Source of the DNA: a virus
Virus record (IMG/VR): IMGVR_UViG_3300042317_001116
Location: 1 to 21,549 of that record
Strand: one strand, 5' to 3'
Length of the DNA: 21,549 bases
The translations under genes were made by a program, and so were the position numbers. Each line of letters opens with the position of its first letter. The stretch's first letter is position 1. Of this stretch, positions 2,000-17,857 are shown piece after piece. Below the pieces are notes generated by a model. It had not been told where the DNA came from. It saw nothing but the letters and a program-made list of their open reading frames with translations, and ran no database searches.

Positions 2000-3226
2000 T
2001 CAGCTGCTGCCGGCGGCGACCAGCTTGGCCACGAACTGCGGGTCGTGGTTCGCCAGGCCGAACCGCTGGAGGCCGCGGTAGACGATGCCGTTCGACTTGA
2101 ACGCCGCGTGTTCCGAAGCCGCGACCTCGAGGCCGTTCTGCTTCAGGACCACGGCGGTCGCCATCGCGAAGTCGCCGTAGAGGGCCAGCGTCCCGGCGGG
2201 GAGGCCGAGCACCCGGTAGACCGGAGCACCCATGACCGTCGGCAGGACGCGATCGCCGACCGTGGTCGACTGGCTGATCACGCTCGACTTCAGCATGTGC
2301 GTCCAGCCTTCGCCCGACACGACCCAGGCCGTGTTCGAGGCCCGGGTGTCGATCTTGCCGACCAGCTCGGCCAGGTCGCCACCGTCGAAATCGGTGCCGG
2401 CCTCGACCTCGTTGTCCTCGTCGACCAGGTCGACCAGGCCGTCGATTTCCTTGGCGTTGTCGCCGTTCAGCCAGACGTTGTCGATCTTGGTCGCGACCGC
2501 GATCGAGATCTGGCGATTGAACACGGTCGCGAGGTTGGCCACGCCGGCCGCGTCGTCGAGCAGCCGCCGCGAGATCGTGACCAGGCGGCCGACCTCGTTC
2601 AGCTTGATGTCCTCGCGGCTGGTCGGGAGCGCCTCGTCGTCGACCTCGGTCAGCTCCTCGACCCAGTCGGCCTCGATGTCGCCGATCTTGGGAACCTGGA
2701 ACTCGTTCGAGGTCGTCTCGAACAGGGTCGCGAGCTGCACACCCACCGACTGGTAGGCGAGCGTCTCGAGGAACCCGCGGTACAGCTCCGGGGAGACCAG
2801 CTCGACGCCGGCCCCGTCATAGGTGGGCGAGGTCTCGCCCATGTTGCGGAGGTCGATGGCCTTCGCACCCATGCCGATCGCCCGGAGGAACGAGCCACCG
2901 GCCACCAGGTCGGCGGCCGCCACCGGGCCGCGCTTGGCGATGTGGATGGCCGGAGCCTTCCGGGTCGCCTTCTCGACTTCGCCGGCGGGGGCGGAGGCGG
3001 GCGTGGCCGCCGTCACCTTCCGCAGCCCTTCGAGGCGGGCGTCGATCGCGTTCTCGCGGGCGGCTTCGACCTCGACCTGGGCGGCGCGGGCCTCGGCGGC
3101 GTTCAGCCGCTCCTGGATCGACGCGGAGTCGGCGTCGTCCTTGGGCTCCATGGAGCGAAGGTCGACGATGGTCTTCGAGAGCGTGGATGCTTCATCCTGA
3201 AGCCGGGCGAGCTTGGGGCTGGGCAT
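2000..3226 (-). CDS. HK97-family major capsid protein
   Basis: A 408-residue protein with the layout of HK97 gp5-type capsid precursors. The first ~75 residues are a charged helical region (LARLQDEASTLSKTIVDLRS, then IQERLNAAEARAAQVEVEAA) expected to be the delta/scaffold domain removed by the prohead protease. A basic linker (KATRKAPAIHIAKRG) follows, then the mature shell domain, including 'GVELVSPELYRGFLETLAYQ', 'TSNEFQVPKIGDIEADWVEE', 'LVTISRRLLDDAA' and a C-terminal P-domain 'VLPTVMGAPVYRVLGLPAGT'. Two ATGs (3229, 3226) follow an AGGAGGG ribosome site; 3226 has the better spacing. The protease is encoded upstream but separated from it by five envelope-type genes, whereas these two genes are usually adjacent. 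Confidence 0.93.
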   Translation of the reverse strand: MPSPKLARLQDEASTLSKTIVDLRSMEPKDDADSASIQERLNAAEARAAQVEVEAARENAIDARLEGLRKVTAATPASAPAGEVEKATRKAPAIHIAKRGPVAAADLVAGGSFLRAIGMGAKAIDLRNMGETSPTYDGAGVELVSPELYRGFLETLAYQSVGVQLATLFETTSNEFQVPKIGDIEADWVEELTEVDDEALPTSREDIKLNEVGRLVTISRRLLDDAAGVANLATVFNRQISIAVATKIDNVWLNGDNAKEIDGLVDLVDEDNEVEAGTDFDGGDLAELVGKIDTRASNTAWVVSGEGWTHMLKSSVISQSTTVGDRVLPTVMGAPVYRVLGLPAGTLALYGDFAMATAVVLKQNGLEVAASEHAAFKSNGIVYRGLQRFGLANHDPQFVAKLVAAGSS

Positions 3227-3286
3227 CATGCCCTCCTGTGAGCGTTGGTAGTTGTCCGAAACCTCTCGCACGATAAAGACGACCGC

Positions 3287-3872: not shown

Positions 3873-5006
3873 TCACAGTGCAAGGTCGAGGCCGGGGATC
3901 ATCACCGGGCCGTCGTCGGGCGGGGGCGGGGCGAGGACGTCGTTCGAGAGATCACGCCAGCCGAAGCCGGCGACGGAGCCGACCGCGAAGGAGTCGGGCT
4001 GGCTTCCCAGCATCCGCTCCACGGTGGACCGGCGGACCCAGAAGCTGCCCTCCGGCATGTCGGCCGGCCACTTCGGGCCGGAGATCCATCGCGGCCCCCA
4101 GCTGTTCAGGCACAGGAGCGCGTCTTCGGGCGACCCGTTCTTCGCGTAGCGGACCGCCACGAAAACCATGCAATGGGCCCACTGGCCAGAGGCCCGCGCG
4201 TACCCGTGCTGGTCGCGGACACTCTCGAACCCGACAAGGCAACAGACCGGGATCGGGAACCCGGCCTCGATCGCGGCGGCCGCCTCCGCGAACGTCTTGA
4301 CCATCGCGACGTGCTGGGCCGGGTGCCGCTTCGCGATCGCGTCGAGCTTGCCGCCGTCGCCCTGGCCGCCGTTGCCGTAGGCTCCCCACTTCTTCGCCCG
4401 GTCGGCGGAGTAGACGCGGAGATCGTGGCCGCCGACTTCCTCGCGGTAGACGATCCCCCAGTCCTTCACCCACCGGGCCGCGGCCGCGCCGTAGCTGCCG
4501 TCGCTCCAGCCGCCGACAGCGGAGCGCCCGTCCCCCGGCCGGCCCCGCGCCTCGACGCGGCTCCCGCCATAGATCGCTTCGGTCGAGGGGAACGGCGGCG
4601 GGTTCGCCAGTCGGCCCGTCTCCCAGTCCACGCATTGAGCGACCCAGACCCCGTGGGCCCATCCCCAGGAAACGCAGTCGCCGATCCCCTGCCGCTCGAC
4701 CACCCACGGCCGGCCGTAGAGGGCGGCGTGGGCCTTGTAGGCGGCGCGGTACAGGAAGGTGTCGACCCCCCTCGACTCCCGGATCGTCTCGGCCCCGGCC
4801 TGGCGGAACATCGGCTCCGGCAGCTCGCGGAGGAACGCGGCCACGCCGTCGGGATCCGGGTGGTATCCGAAGTCGCCGTCGGCCTCGAGGCCGAACAAGC
4901 CGCCGGCCGGGCGGCCGCGGAGGCCGCCGATCAGGAAGGCGGCGGCCACCCCCAGGAGCAGGACGAACGCCAGAAGGCGAATGTGCCGAAACTCAGCGCG
5001 AGACAT
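3873..5006 (-). CDS. membrane-anchored papain-like (C1 family) cysteine peptidase
   Basis: A 377-residue protein with an N-terminal membrane segment (residues ~8-28, IRLLAFVLLLGVAAAFLIGG) and a papain-like catalytic domain. The papain signature can be traced: Gln106 and Cys111 in RQGIGDCVSWGWA, His278 in GQWAHCMVFVAV, and Asn301 in CLNSWGPRW, which match the oxyanion Gln, nucleophile Cys, His and Asn of C1 peptidases. The start at 5006 overlaps the previous gene by 14 bases and has a GAGGG ribosome site. It sits among small membrane proteins where an endolysin would be expected, and no lysozyme, amidase or transglycosylase is visible in the window. I infer a lysis or cell-wall-protein-degrading role. 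Cleavage of a virion protein is an alternative. Confidence 0.8.
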   Translation of the reverse strand: MSRAEFRHIRLLAFVLLLGVAAAFLIGGLRGRPAGGLFGLEADGDFGYHPDPDGVAAFLRELPEPMFRQAGAETIRESRGVDTFLYRAAYKAHAALYGRPWVVERQGIGDCVSWGWAHGVWVAQCVDWETGRLANPPPFPSTEAIYGGSRVEARGRPGDGRSAVGGWSDGSYGAAAARWVKDWGIVYREEVGGHDLRVYSADRAKKWGAYGNGGQGDGGKLDAIAKRHPAQHVAMVKTFAEAAAAIEAGFPIPVCCLVGFESVRDQHGYARASGQWAHCMVFVAVRYAKNGSPEDALLCLNSWGPRWISGPKWPADMPEGSFWVRRSTVERMLGSQPDSFAVGSVAGFGWRDLSNDVLAPPPPDDGPVMIPGLDLAL

Positions 5007-5935: not shown

Positions 5936-6907
5936 TCAGCCGGTGACGATTCGCATCCGGGCGGCGGCGGCCGCTGCCGCGGCCCGGGCCCCGGCCAGGG
6001 TCGAGACCTTGACCGGCGGCGTCCCCCGCGGGACCGGCGCGGCGTCCGGGATCCCCTCGGGGTAGTCGTCGATCCACACGTCCACCTCGAGGCCGGCGGC
6101 GGCCGCGGCGGCCCGCTTCTGGGTGCCGGTGCCGCAGAGCAGCAGCCCGGCCAGGTCGAGGTCGCCGAAGGCCAGCCGCAGCTCGTCGCGGTTGGCTTCG
6201 TTGTCCTCGCGGCGCGAGATGCACACCACGCGATTGCCGCGCCCCGTGGCGTCCACGATGAAGGACCGCCACAGGCCGGGCGCGGCGGTGAACGTGCGGT
6301 CGTAGTCGATCGAGATCGTGAGCGGCTTCGGCTCGGCCCGGTGGGCGACCACGCTCCGGAACCGCTTCCAGAGCGGCAGCGACCTGGCCGACAGGCTCGA
6401 GGACGGGTAGGCGGCCCGGGTGACTGGCGACACGTCGTAAAGGCCGGAGGCCTCGTGGACCGTTCGCGTCACGCCGCCGCGTTCGTCCTCGACCCACTCC
6501 TCGCCCTTCGGGTTGACCGTGAACGCGAACGACGACCCGAAGATCGTCTTGGTCCTGATCAGCGTCAGGACCTTCTCGGCGTCGGCCGTCGGCACGGGGT
6601 CGCCTTCGTAGGCCAGACCCTTGTCCGCCTTCGAGATCCGGAGCGTTCCGTTGGTCGTCCGGGCCAGGATCTGGGAATCGTCGTGATTGAACAGGAGCGG
6701 AACGTCCAGCCGCTTCTTCGCCAGGATCTTGTCGAACGACGTCGACGCGAACTTCTCCCGGAATCCTCCCAGGTCCACGGACAGCGAATCCCACGGCGGG
6801 GCGATTCCGCGAATCTTCGGGGCCTCGCCCTCGCGCTCCTCGACGAACAGGCCGTCGTCGCCGATGGCGTCCAGCGACAGGTAGCGTCGTTCGATCTGCT
6901 CGTTCAT
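5936..6907 (-). CDS. HK97 prohead serine protease fused to a compact HAD-like domain
   Basis: A 323-residue protein. Residues ~1-180 are a U35-type prohead protease: 'IRGIAPPWDSLSVDLGGFRE', a candidate catalytic His75 in PLLFNHDDS, candidate Ser125/126 in IFGSSFAFTV, and the conserved strand 'GLYDVSPVTRAAYPSSS'. Residues ~195-285 carry all four motifs of a HAD-superfamily phosphohydrolase: D201-x-D203-x-T205 in LTISIDYDRTFT, S231 in VVCISRRE, K264 in GTQKRAA and D280/D281 in VWIDDYPE. The tail is Ala-rich. HK97-type proteases are usually shorter and lack this part. The ATG overlaps the portal stop (ATGA). The protease would mature the capsid; the HAD domain's substrate is unknown. Confidence 0.85.
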   Translation of the reverse strand: MNEQIERRYLSLDAIGDDGLFVEEREGEAPKIRGIAPPWDSLSVDLGGFREKFASTSFDKILAKKRLDVPLLFNHDDSQILARTTNGTLRISKADKGLAYEGDPVPTADAEKVLTLIRTKTIFGSSFAFTVNPKGEEWVEDERGGVTRTVHEASGLYDVSPVTRAAYPSSSLSARSLPLWKRFRSVVAHRAEPKPLTISIDYDRTFTAAPGLWRSFIVDATGRGNRVVCISRREDNEANRDELRLAFGDLDLAGLLLCGTGTQKRAAAAAAGLEVDVWIDDYPEGIPDAAPVPRGTPPVKVSTLAGARAAAAAAAARMRIVTG

Positions 6908-8697
6908 GGCTGGTCTCCTGACTGCTGGTCGGGCGGCGGCAGGGGGATCGCACCCTCGACCATTTGCTGGGCGAGGTCGGGCGACACGGTCGGAAACGCG
7001 GACGTGATCAGGGCGACCGCGGCCGGCTTCTCCAGCGTTCCGGCAGAGACCTGGGCCAGGACCTCGAGGAGCGCCGTGACCTGGGCACCGTTTAGGGCAG
7101 TGGCCGCGAGGTCGTCCGTGATGCCGGTGGCCGGCAGCTCGTCGTCGGCGGGCTCCGTCTCCTGCCGATCGACCGGCGTGGCAGACAGCTCCGAGACCCG
7201 CTTGCCGACCAGCATCTCGGACGGTTGCCCGTCCTCGTAGACGCGGACCAGCGCGGCCGGCTCGGCCTCCGTGGCGGCGATCGCGAACGGCGAGCCCTCG
7301 ACCCCAAGGACCCCGGAAACCATCAGGTGTTCGATCTCGCCCTCGCCGCCAGCCCAGTAGACGACCTGGCCCTCGCGGAAGCCGCCGGCCTCCGGCACTC
7401 CTTGGCCCTGGCCGACACTCTCGACCGGCTCGCCTTCGGGGGCGGCCGCCGCGGCCGCGGCGTTGCCCAGGGTCGAGAACCCAAGCTGCATGAAGGTCTC
7501 GTTCGCGGCCTGGTCGTCGAGAACCTCGAGGTCCTCGAAGTCGCGGATCTCGTTCGGGGTGATCGCCCCCATGTTGAACATCGACTGGTAGAGCGCCGCG
7601 CGGCTCGCGGAGTCGCCCCGAAGGAGCCCGCGGTTGTCGAGCCGGACGTAGACGTCGTCGCCGTAGACCGGCTGGAGCGCCATATCGAACGGCCCCTCCA
7701 TCCGCTTTTGCCAGGGCAGCATGCACCACACCTGCGCGGAGAGATGCTCCTGCTCCGGGTTCGAGTAGCGGGCCATCTTGGCATCGCCCAGGAGCGTCGA
7801 GGGGACACCCCAGTGTCGGCAGATGTCGGGGAGGATCGCGTCCCGGAGCTGCTGGTACTGGCTCTGCTCCATGCTGTTGGATTGCATGGGCGTCAGCGTC
7901 ATCTTCTTCGTCATGACGGCCGGGGCTCCGCGGTTGGCCCCGCCGTACATCTCGCGGAACATCGTCCGCAGCTGGTCGATCGCGGCCTCGTCGAGCTTCT
8001 CGTCGGTCTGGATCACGAAGTCGGGCCGGGCCCCGTTCCGCCAGTAGGCGGTGGCCGCCACGTCGAGCTGACGGGCCAGGCCGATCGAGGTCGCGCACAC
8101 CTCCGACGGAGCCATTCCCCAGAGTCCGTTTTCGCTCATCCACTTCCAGTGGAGGACCTCGGTCTGGGCGAGGGTCTCCCAGCCGCCCTTCTCCTGGAGG
8201 AACTGGTAGCGGATCGAGTAGTCGGGCAGCTGCTCCACCTTGACCCGGGTCGGGTGCATGGGGATCAGCGTGGACATGAAGCCCCGCTCGCCCGGCAGGA
8301 TCCGGGCGAAGCCGTTGCCGTGGAGCGCCGTCCAGTAGGCCTGGAGCGACATGAAGTCGAACGACGTCTGCCACGGGTTCGGCCGCCGGCGGATTGCGTA
8401 GGCGGACGGCGGATTGAACGGGACCTTCCGGCCGTTCGGTAGCGTCTGGTGGATGTGGACCGGCATCACGCCGACCCCCTGCCCGATAAACCGGCAGACC
8501 GCGAAGATCGACGACACCCGGACCGCGATCTCGGGGGTAATGTGGCCCCCCAGCAGATTCCCGCCGGTGCCGCTCCAGGCCGAAGGCGACAGGGCCAGGT
8601 TTGACCCCCGGACGGAGAACATCACCGGCCCGGTCGCCTTGCCGCGCCGCCGCGAGGGCCGCTTCGTGGTGGTGGCGGTGGCCTTCTTGGCGGGCAT
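6904..8697 (-). CDS. HK97-family portal protein with C-terminal extension
   Basis: A 597-residue protein. Residues ~28-410 match the HK97 portal layout: 'GGHITPEIAVRVSSIFAVCR', 'MSLQAYWTALHGNGFARIL', 'EVLHWKWMSENGLWGMAP', 'HWGVPSTLLGDAK' and the C-terminal motif 'MGAITPNEIRDFEDLEVLDD'. After an Ala-run (AAAAAAAPEG) there are about 170 extra residues. One part (~441-505, EGQVVYWAGGEGEIEHLMVS...LVGKRVSEL) resembles the small SH3-like DUF2945-type module that I recall from other phage head proteins. The end (ALLEVLAQVSAGTLEKPAAV) is helical. The portal forms the dodecameric DNA gate. It precedes the protease gene with an ATGA overlap and follows large terminase after an 84-base gap. Confidence 0.92.
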   Translation of the reverse strand: MPAKKATATTTKRPSRRRGKATGPVMFSVRGSNLALSPSAWSGTGGNLLGGHITPEIAVRVSSIFAVCRFIGQGVGVMPVHIHQTLPNGRKVPFNPPSAYAIRRRPNPWQTSFDFMSLQAYWTALHGNGFARILPGERGFMSTLIPMHPTRVKVEQLPDYSIRYQFLQEKGGWETLAQTEVLHWKWMSENGLWGMAPSEVCATSIGLARQLDVAATAYWRNGARPDFVIQTDEKLDEAAIDQLRTMFREMYGGANRGAPAVMTKKMTLTPMQSNSMEQSQYQQLRDAILPDICRHWGVPSTLLGDAKMARYSNPEQEHLSAQVWCMLPWQKRMEGPFDMALQPVYGDDVYVRLDNRGLLRGDSASRAALYQSMFNMGAITPNEIRDFEDLEVLDDQAANETFMQLGFSTLGNAAAAAAAPEGEPVESVGQGQGVPEAGGFREGQVVYWAGGEGEIEHLMVSGVLGVEGSPFAIAATEAEPAALVRVYEDGQPSEMLVGKRVSELSATPVDRQETEPADDELPATGITDDLAATALNGAQVTALLEVLAQVSAGTLEKPAAVALITSAFPTVSPDLAQQMVEGAIPLPPPDQQSGDQP

Positions 8698-15599: not shown

Positions 15600-16032
15600 G
15601 GTTGGCCTCCGTAGTCAGTTCGCTTCTCAGGTAGTCCTCGATACTCATTTCCCGTCGCTGGTTGTTGTGTGCCCGGCACTCGATCTGGCCGTTTGCGACA
15701 TTCAGCGGGCCGCCCTTGCATCTGGGAACGACGTGCCCAGCCTCTACTTCGTCGGAGCAAGGCCCCTTGCCGCGGCGCTTGAAGTAGCACTCCGTCCCAT
15801 GTGCGAGCGCGATGTCCACCTTCGTCTTTGCCTCACTGCTCTTTCGTAGGTGGATACTCCACTGCTCGATGTCGTCGATCGTGAACGGAAAAAAGGAATC
15901 GCTCGTGAGGTTGACCCATTCCGCCATCACCGAGAGAGCGGCGCGGCGGCGCTGGTCGGATGTTGGCCTGTCTGCGCCGCCAAGGTCGGCCAGGCGAATG
16001 GCACAGCACAAATGCAGTTCGTTCTCTGTCAT
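15589..16032 (-). CDS. HNH endonuclease coupled to the methyltransferase
   Basis: A 147-residue protein starting MTENELHLCCAIRLADLGGA. The N-terminal ~75 residues are helical and unassigned. The C-terminal HNH domain shows C82, C92, the core 'GHVVPRCKGG' (H100) with N111, and 'IECRAHNNQRR' (C119, H122), a full zinc-type HNH. The ATG overlaps the methyltransferase stop (ATGA, 16029-16032), so both are made from one message. It could be the cutting partner of the methyltransferase, a homing-type nuclease or a DNA-processing enzyme. Lower GC than the flanking genes matches the methyltransferase gene and suggests they moved together. Confidence 0.8.
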   Translation of the reverse strand: MTENELHLCCAIRLADLGGADRPTSDQRRRAALSVMAEWVNLTSDSFFPFTIDDIEQWSIHLRKSSEAKTKVDIALAHGTECYFKRRGKGPCSDEVEAGHVVPRCKGGPLNVANGQIECRAHNNQRREMSIEDYLRSELTTEANHEQ

Positions 16033-17435
16033 GACGCGGTGATCCTCTTGGTGGCGATGTCTGCAAAAATCTCGCTCTTTTCAATGCCGACGTATTTCCG
16101 GCCGTTTCGCACGGCCGCAACGCCGGTGGTCCCGCTGCCGTTGAACGGGTCCACGACCAGGTCGCCTGGCATTGAGGCGCACAGCACGACGGCCTCGACC
16201 AACGCGATCGGAAGCTGGGTCGGGAAGTCTGGGATCCGCTCGGCACATGTCCCAGTCAATCGCGGGATCTGCCAAACGTCGTCCCACAACTTGCCGCCGG
16301 CGGCAGCCCGGCTGTCGCCGTACTTCGTCTGCCGGTCGCTGGGCCGCGTCACGGGCTCAGGGTTAAAAACGAACGACCCAGGATCCTTGACGGCGTAGAA
16401 AATGTGCCGGCTTGTCCGGTTGAACTTGTTCGAGCAGTTCACGCCAAACGTCTCGTACCACTTGATCCACGATCGGATCGTGTATCCGGCGGCCTTCAGC
16501 TCGACGGCATACTCAGCGGCGTACTCGTCGCCGATCATCACCCACAGCGAACCGTCGTCAGTCAGGCAGTCCCAGCACAGCGCAAACCACTGCCGCACCC
16601 ACTTCATGTAGGCTGCGTCCGCGAGCCGGTCGGCCTGCTCGCCGTCTCCGTAGTCGATGCCAATGTTGTACGGCGGGTCTGTGAAGATCAGCCGCGCCGG
16701 CCCGTGTTCGCCGCGGACAGACTCCAGCCCGTCAAGAACGTCCACGTTGAGAATCGACCATTTCGGACGATCTGATTCGTGCCGCTCTGCCGCCGCCTTG
16801 GCGGCAGCCTGCTCGAGTTCCTGGCGGCGCTTGTCGCTGCGGATCTCGCGGAGCGCCTCGGCAGGCTTGATCTCACCGTGAATCACTTTCCTCGCGAGGT
16901 CCGGCCGCTTTGCGATTTGCTCAGCGCGACCCATCGTCGCCGGCGAAACCTTGGCCTCAGCAGCGCGGGCCTCGCGAGTGACAGCCACCTTCGGCTTTTT
17001 AGCCACTGGTTGATCATTGTGATCAACTTCTGGACGAGACTTCAGCCGCCCCGCGTTGTCGCGCGGCCTAACAGCTGCCGCCTGAGACTTCTTGCGATTT
17101 CCTTCCTCGGCAATCTTCGCCAGTTTTGCAGCCCACCTCGCGGACCCCTTGTCGCACTCCAGCTTGATCAGCGCTCGCCGAACGTCCTCAAGGTCGCGCC
17201 GCGCCCCGTTGAGCGACCAGGCGAACGCCCACGGGTCGCCGTCAAACTCCCGCGTTACTGGCTCGACGCCGGCCTCCAGGCAGGCCCTGTAGCGGTTGCG
17301 GCCGTCAAGAATCATGCCGTCGCACAGCGTGATGGGCTCCCGCTGGCCGTTCTCGCGAACGTCGGCCAGCAGCTCGCCGTAGCGGCCGTCGTCCATCATC
17401 GGGAAGGTGTCGGCCGCTGGGTGGTTCTTCATCAT
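16029..17435 (-). CDS. ParB-domain DNA methyltransferase (N4-cytosine/N6-adenine)
   Basis: A 468-residue protein. Residues ~15-110 are a ParB/sulfiredoxin-like domain (EPITLCDGMILDGRNRYRAC). Residues ~160-200 form a ParB-type HTH (SPATMGRAEQIAKRPDLARK). The catalytic domain has motif IV FTDPPYNIG (253-256 DPPY) before motif I DPFNGSGTTG (~429-438), the beta-class order for DNA amino-methyltransferases. The enzyme would methylate A or C within a site. The start at 17435 has an AGAGGA ribosome site ~8 bases upstream; earlier in-frame codons lack one. Codon use is less GC-rich than the neighbours. It may protect phage DNA or mark it for regulation, or act with the coupled HNH nuclease. Confidence 0.9.
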   Translation of the reverse strand: MMKNHPAADTFPMMDDGRYGELLADVRENGQREPITLCDGMILDGRNRYRACLEAGVEPVTREFDGDPWAFAWSLNGARRDLEDVRRALIKLECDKGSARWAAKLAKIAEEGNRKKSQAAAVRPRDNAGRLKSRPEVDHNDQPVAKKPKVAVTREARAAEAKVSPATMGRAEQIAKRPDLARKVIHGEIKPAEALREIRSDKRRQELEQAAAKAAAERHESDRPKWSILNVDVLDGLESVRGEHGPARLIFTDPPYNIGIDYGDGEQADRLADAAYMKWVRQWFALCWDCLTDDGSLWVMIGDEYAAEYAVELKAAGYTIRSWIKWYETFGVNCSNKFNRTSRHIFYAVKDPGSFVFNPEPVTRPSDRQTKYGDSRAAAGGKLWDDVWQIPRLTGTCAERIPDFPTQLPIALVEAVVLCASMPGDLVVDPFNGSGTTGVAAVRNGRKYVGIEKSEIFADIATKRITAS

Positions 17436-17458
17436 GACTCTGATCCTCTTTGGAATGA

Positions 17459-17488
17459 TGCAAACACTTCCGCGCTCTGTTACGTCAA
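17459..17488 (-). promoter_or_regulatory. possible promoter of the methyltransferase cassette
   Basis: The gap between the winged-helix gene and the methyltransferase has a T-run ending TTTTTTGACG. TTGACG (17483-17488) matches a -35 box and is followed after 18 bases by TTTGCA (17459-17464), a weak -10. The gap is A/T-rich for this genome. The cassette may therefore have its own promoter, as morons often do. Confidence 0.3.
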
Positions 17489-17497
17489 AAAAGCCTC

Positions 17498-17857
17498 TCA
17501 CGTCTTCACCCTCCACACCCGCGCCCCGGCCGTCCCGTGGCCCTTCCTCCGGGCCGCGAACCCGACCGCCTCGATCTGCCCCCGGCGGGCCAGCGTCCCG
17601 ATCACGGCCCCGAAGGCCCTGGCGTCGTGCGGGACCAGGCCCAGCCGCTGGCAGTGGTCGACGATCTCCTCGCCGGAGCGGGGCCGGCCGTCCGCCAGCA
17701 GCTCGAGCACCGCGGCCCGGGCGGCGTCAGCGTCGAAGCCGCGCCGCTCGGCCTTCTCCAGGCAGGCGGCCCCGGCCGCGATCCCGGCCTGGCGGGGCGC
17801 GGCGGCCTGGGTGAACAGGGGGCCGAAGTCGGGCCGCTCGGGGTAGTAGTCGCTCAC
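17498..17857 (-). CDS. winged-helix-like DNA-binding protein
   Basis: A 119-residue protein starting with GTG at 17857 (VSDYYPERPDFGPLFTQAAA), overlapping the previous stop as GTGA. Residues ~45-115 look like a winged helix: 'AAVLELLADGRPRSGEEIVD', 'AFGAVIGTLARRGQIEAVGF' and the wing 'GHGTAGARVWRVKT'. Similar small proteins occur in phage replication blocks near resolvases and SSB. Its partner or target is unknown. It is the last GC-rich gene before the methyltransferase cassette. Confidence 0.65.
   Translation of the reverse strand: MSDYYPERPDFGPLFTQAAAPRQAGIAAGAACLEKAERRGFDADAARAAVLELLADGRPRSGEEIVDHCQRLGLVPHDARAFGAVIGTLARRGQIEAVGFAARRKGHGTAGARVWRVKT

Follow-up and report, generated by a model that had tools for sequence, protein, structure and literature searches.

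Gene organization and the protease domain

The window, the whole stretch of DNA analyzed here, is a 21,549-base IMG/VR viral record. An ORF of 323 aa on its minus strand (5936-6907) encodes a prohead protease fused to a HAD domain, and the gene sits between the portal and major capsid genes. Its start codon (ATG at 6907) has AGGAGA upstream and overlaps the stop codon of the directly upstream portal gene (6904-8697, minus strand; PF04860, E 2e-72). The major capsid protein gene (2000-3271, minus strand) carries an N-terminal extension and was assigned by matches to PF05065 (residues 158-417, E 3.5e-21) and PHROG_10.

Several other ORFs were observed at this and related loci. The gap between the protease and capsid genes holds an ORF (3873-5000, minus strand) with papain-like motifs (QGIGDCVSWGWAHG, followed by HCMVFV and NSWGPRW) and a hydrophobic segment at the N-terminus; searches of Pfam, PHROG, and PDB sequences turned up nothing for it, and ORFs resembling it are present in the relatives L168, L319, and L330. 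In most relatives a small zinc-ribbon-like ORF (CxxC...CxxC) lies directly 3' of the protease gene (L168, 3855-4061; L172, 3735-3920; and many fused loci); none was noticed in the window. The HAD as a replacement for this ORF behind unfused proteases was ruled out because 132 fused loci carry both. Elsewhere in the window (16029-17516, minus strand) an N4/N6 DNA methyltransferase is joined to a ParB-like N-terminal region.

Residues 24-175 of the fusion protein (6383-6838, minus strand) match Pfam Peptidase_S78 (PF04586; E 1.5e-30, 106.9 bits vs a cut-off of 21), as do all 25 members of alignment A1. The window protease also matches TIGR01543 (65.9 bits vs a cut-off of 59) and PHROG_80. His75 and Ser126 are invariant in alignments A1 and A4. 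When the full-length model was compared with solved structures by VIA-align, residues 2-165 matched the T4 gp21 protease (Z 11.4 over 143 residues), and herpesvirus proteases scored Z ∼6 against the protease domain. By these matches this part of the protein is an HK97-type prohead protease of the Peptidase_S78 family (S78 is the present name of U35) with an assemblin-like fold, predicted to cleave itself and the capsid protein in the prohead.

Fold and catalytic motifs of the HAD domain

The protease helix is followed on the minus strand by a linker (residues 181-195, 6323-6367), the HAD domain (residues 196-286, 6050-6322), a Pro/Ala-rich variable linker (residues 287-300, 6008-6049) marked by gaps and low conservation in alignment A1 and by pLDDT <50, and a conserved Ala-rich C-terminal helix or tail, VKVSTLAGARAAAAAAAARMRIVTG (residues 299-323, 5939-6013). 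AlphaFold modelled the full-length protein (25 sequences) as two domains, with pLDDT <50 after residue 283, and the isolated HAD domain (55 sequences) with a pLDDT of 97. In the model D201-Y-D203-R-T205 comes after strand 1, strand 2 ends at S231, with R233 just beyond, K264 is the first residue of a helix, and D280-D281 come after strand 4. Motifs II and IV are 49-51 residues apart. With only 30 residues between motifs I and II, the domain is capless (C0-type), with no C1 or C2 cap insert.

The closest solved fold to the isolated HAD domain was the 3'-phosphatase of T4 polynucleotide kinase/phosphatase (Pnkp), with Z 10.5 and 2.2 Å over 92 residues (VIA-align); residues 192-286 of the full-length model matched the same enzyme with Z 9.2. 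HAD folds head the neighbor list from Z 10.5 down to ∼7. Nearly all the other solved neighbors belong to the HAD superfamily (bacterial Pnkp1, MDP-1, lipin-type phosphatases, AphA, BT_0820), and Pnkp outscores the other phosphatases only narrowly (Z 10.5 vs 8-9). Foldseek against the PDB at E 0.001 gave no match for the full-length protein or the isolated domain; against BFVD it matched stand-alone phage proteins, with E down to 1.6e-8. The HAD assignment thus rests on VIA-align Z-scores, the motifs, and these BFVD matches.

In profile searches residues 196-286 matched PHROG_4919 (E 1.4e-16) and PHROG_4256 (E 9.6e-15), both without a recorded function, and all 55 non-redundant fused domains matched these two families. 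Pfam and NCBIfam gave no match to the HAD part of the window protein, so annotation pipelines would miss it. Weak matches to Pfam MEDS (best 0.00065) were judged to be due to chance. The HAD profile retrieved only unconvincing PDB sequences (a designed protein, E 0.0019; an SDR, E 0.34).

We concluded that residues 196-286 are a capless HAD domain, as predicted by the models, with all four motifs intact. A sequence-only reading of this DNA had proposed a full U35-type protease followed by a compact HAD, with DxDxT, Ser, Lys, and DD in HAD order. The profile matches bear out this architecture, the Rossmann-like HAD core is present in the C-terminal part (models and VIA-align neighbors), and the motifs lie where that reading put them, the D, S/T, K, and DD residues being kept across homologues. 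A chance order of motifs is ruled out by the fold and the conservation. What it missed was the cassette nature of the domain, its stand-alone family, and the conserved C-terminal tail.

Spread and conservation of the fusion

The search for other protease-HAD fusions, which the same reading had suggested, yielded 210 fused ORFs in the fetched IMG/VR loci, at least 147 of them distinct at the DNA level. No fused gene was found in ∼50,000 annotated phage records, none of which covers 80% of the window protein, and the HAD insert was not seen there; scans of genome contigs confirmed no relative, cellular or prophage. The HAD is carried by most of the protease clade members that were sampled. The fusion is, by these sequence counts, widespread among uncultured phages.

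Among 100 distinct fused domains (window included), no substitution occurs at D201, D203, T205, R232, R233, K264, or D281; position 231 holds either Ser or Thr, and a single domain (L003) has Glu in place of D280. Median pairwise dN/dS values were 0.26 (HAD), 0.48 (protease), and 0.16 (C-terminal tail), all of them rough, with many pairs near saturation. The estimates show apparent purifying selection on the HAD domain.

This pattern bears on whether the HAD, having lost its phosphatase role, could have a structural or binding part in the protease or scaffold and tune head assembly as a spacer or by binding phosphate or DNA. HAD folds can be non-catalytic binders, and the insertion adjoins a conserved C-terminal helix in a head-assembly gene. 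Yet all catalytic residues are kept in ∼100 distinct domains, retention of D201, D203, S/T231, K264, and D281 is not what one would expect of a pure spacer, and the HAD is entirely missing from several unfused relatives. We therefore regard a purely structural role as quite improbable.

The HAD domain as an inserted cassette

Seven complete relatives have no HAD. When the unfused L165, L168, and L172 were compared with the fused L322, L323, L330, and L341, nucleotide identity was 69-77% in the protease and 68-82% in the C-terminal tail, and the HAD with its short linkers was the only large difference. The window-type tail is conserved in the fused relatives; tail identity between fused and unfused members is clear in another subgroup (L319-L341), whereas window-type and unfused tails matched only weakly in an HMM comparison. 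Because the protease and, in the clearest set, the same C-terminal tail persist in unfused relatives, the HAD is an inserted cassette. On the protease tree, which is quick and unrooted and so does not distinguish gain from loss, well-supported branches carry at least four changes of the fused state. Since the HAD was repeatedly gained or lost, the protease does not need it.

The linker at residues 181-195 is also a recombination junction: in five pairs DNA identity jumps there from ∼60% before to mostly 93-100% after. In L017 the HAD protein is 100% identical to that of the window, the protease in front of it belongs to another subtype (58% identical), and the changeover falls in the linker. 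Compared with the window (5936-7410, minus strand), L017, L018, L020, and L021 have the portal end and the protease domain replaced as one cassette, and the flanks of the swapped segment keep ∼89-97% DNA identity to the window. With the protease swapped ahead of an unchanged HAD, the two domains seem to need no co-evolved interface, the HAD being apparently a module that is not fitted to the protease.

Taken together, the locus comparisons show a HAD cassette inserted behind the catalytic part of the protease, ahead of the conserved C-terminal tail, and repeatedly gained or lost. An accessory insert of little function that is only transient and is spread through the portal-protease region by recombination might also be gained or lost repeatedly and show recombination at its junction. 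We find this reading very hard to credit, since the dN/dS is 0.26, the catalytic residues are invariant, and most of the clade members sampled by their protease have the HAD.

Stand-alone HAD relatives and a second head-gene lineage

The HAD domain is also a widespread phage protein in its own right. A wider scan found 80 loci with ∼61 distinct stand-alone HADs and no S78 protease in the fetched flanks (≤4 kb). In Vequintavirinae the stand-alone HAD gene comes after a MazG-like pyrophosphatase gene, and the MazG-HAD pairing occurs in five scanned loci (a raw count without a background rate). Other stand-alone HADs lie near genes for dATP/dGTP diphosphohydrolase (PF18909), ThyX, or ribonucleotide reductase (RNR). 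Such neighbors were seen in only a minority of the 61 distinct loci, with few nucleotide-metabolism genes probed; the neighborhoods offer modest evidence pointing to nucleotide chemistry.

In a second head-gene lineage, with a GpA terminase and a lambda-type portal, the closest stand-alone HADs, those of L255, L258, and L317, are encoded immediately behind the portal gene. A protease-like gene lies a short way further on in L255 and L258, which places their HAD between portal and protease-like gene. In L255 the ORF behind the HAD has no Pfam or PHROG match and was named protease-like from its position and GHD/GLSIAF motifs. No HAD was found at that site in nine relatives with the portal end on the contig. 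Two arrangements thus bring the HAD into the same late-operon region, one as a gene of its own and the other within the protease.

The starts of the stand-alone HAD genes in L255 (1667-1996) and L317 (4001-4333) resemble a small ORF (MPYAVRKTPTGWVKV...) that sits between the portal and protease-like genes in HAD-less relatives. By this resemblance the second-lineage HAD looks as if it had been grafted onto a copy of the small ORF's start. In BFVD, three entries named XkdF or prohead protease (A0A6J5N6Z6, A0A6J7WEB6, and A0A6J5NAI8) gave a weak HAD-like fold match; by model comparison they are possible further protease-HAD fusions and a possible second fusion lineage.

The stand-alone relatives are ordinary small genes, several of them in non-structural regions near DNA polymerase, ThyX, MazG, or RNR. 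This would suit a HAD active in the cytoplasm late in infection, on the nucleotide pool or in dephosphorylation of host factors, with the fusion providing late expression and procapsid targeting being incidental; exchange of the protease without change in the HAD would fit as well. We consider a cytoplasmic role rather unlikely, because the insert lies inside one ORF with a conserved tail behind it and is not a coupled separate gene, and the second lineage also has a HAD beside a protease-like gene. In addition, no internal start codon is conserved at the HAD boundary, and 30 of 99 genes have none within the 21 codons examined, which led us to reject an independently translated HAD.

A possible route for an enzyme into the phage head

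The reading that we prefer, and to which we give an even chance of being right, is that the HAD is an optional phosphohydrolase cassette that enters the procapsid as a passenger on the protease, is probably cleaved free, and acts on nucleotides or nucleic-acid ends. In HK97 and T4 the maturation protease is built into the inside of the procapsid, and by analogy with these heads the HAD would be carried in with the protease. During maturation it may be cut free within the flexible linkers (residues 181-195 and 287-300). It would then act as a Mg2+-dependent phosphomonoesterase, inside the head or, after ejection, in the next host. The most likely substrates would be (deoxy)nucleotides or 3'-phosphate nucleic-acid ends, for which the stand-alone neighborhoods and the Pnkp-like fold each give modest evidence. 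Large or extended substrates are common for capless HADs, so phosphoproteins are also possible.

Head maturation proteases are usually seen as single-purpose processing enzymes. A conserved phosphatase cassette, repeatedly gained or lost, suggests that the protease can also serve as a route for enzymes into the head. The broader proposal is that these proteases are modular loading vehicles, into which an active phosphohydrolase has been repeatedly spliced, to be self-cleaved in the procapsid and to process nucleotides or DNA ends while DNA is being packaged or once the next cell is infected; we offer it tentatively, as somewhat more likely wrong than right. The natural pairs with and without the HAD make the loading idea testable, and PHROG_4919 and PHROG_4256, without a function on record, gain a likely biochemical class.

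Comparison with known systems

Both domains come from known families; their combination was found in no paper searched, the literature search having returned none on a protease-HAD fusion, and appears to be new. The window protease shares with HK97 gp4-type prohead proteases (MEROPS S78, formerly U35; PF04586) a common sequence family, the gene position between portal and capsid, the conserved His and Ser, and a fold close to that of T4 gp21. It differs in having a HAD insert, which was not seen in the gp4-type proteases of annotated phage records. The stand-alone proteins of PHROG_4919 and PHROG_4256 (SU10_045, GAP31_040) have a homologous HAD that shares the motifs, S/T-x-R and WIDDxP among them. 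They are encoded by separate genes of roughly 92-150 aa without a protease, whereas the window HAD is fused.

The motifs of T4 Pnkp (DxDxT, S-x-R, and DD) are in the same order as in the window HAD. Its 3'-phosphatase (1rrc, 5uj0) aligns over 92 residues with 16% identity, and a sequence search of the PDB did not link the two. Unlike T4 Pnkp, which has a kinase domain and longer loops, the window protein has no kinase domain and its loops are shorter. The small HAD of BT_0820 type (2obb) is single-domain like the window HAD (Z 8.0, 79 residues aligned, 23% identity) and differs from it in having no protease attached. A survey of polyvalent and virion-packaged phage proteins (PMC5512222) does not mention HAD or phosphatase in its text and names the prohead protease only in its reference list. 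The likeness to the proteins that it describes lies in the idea of head-borne enzymes linked to structural or protease parts.
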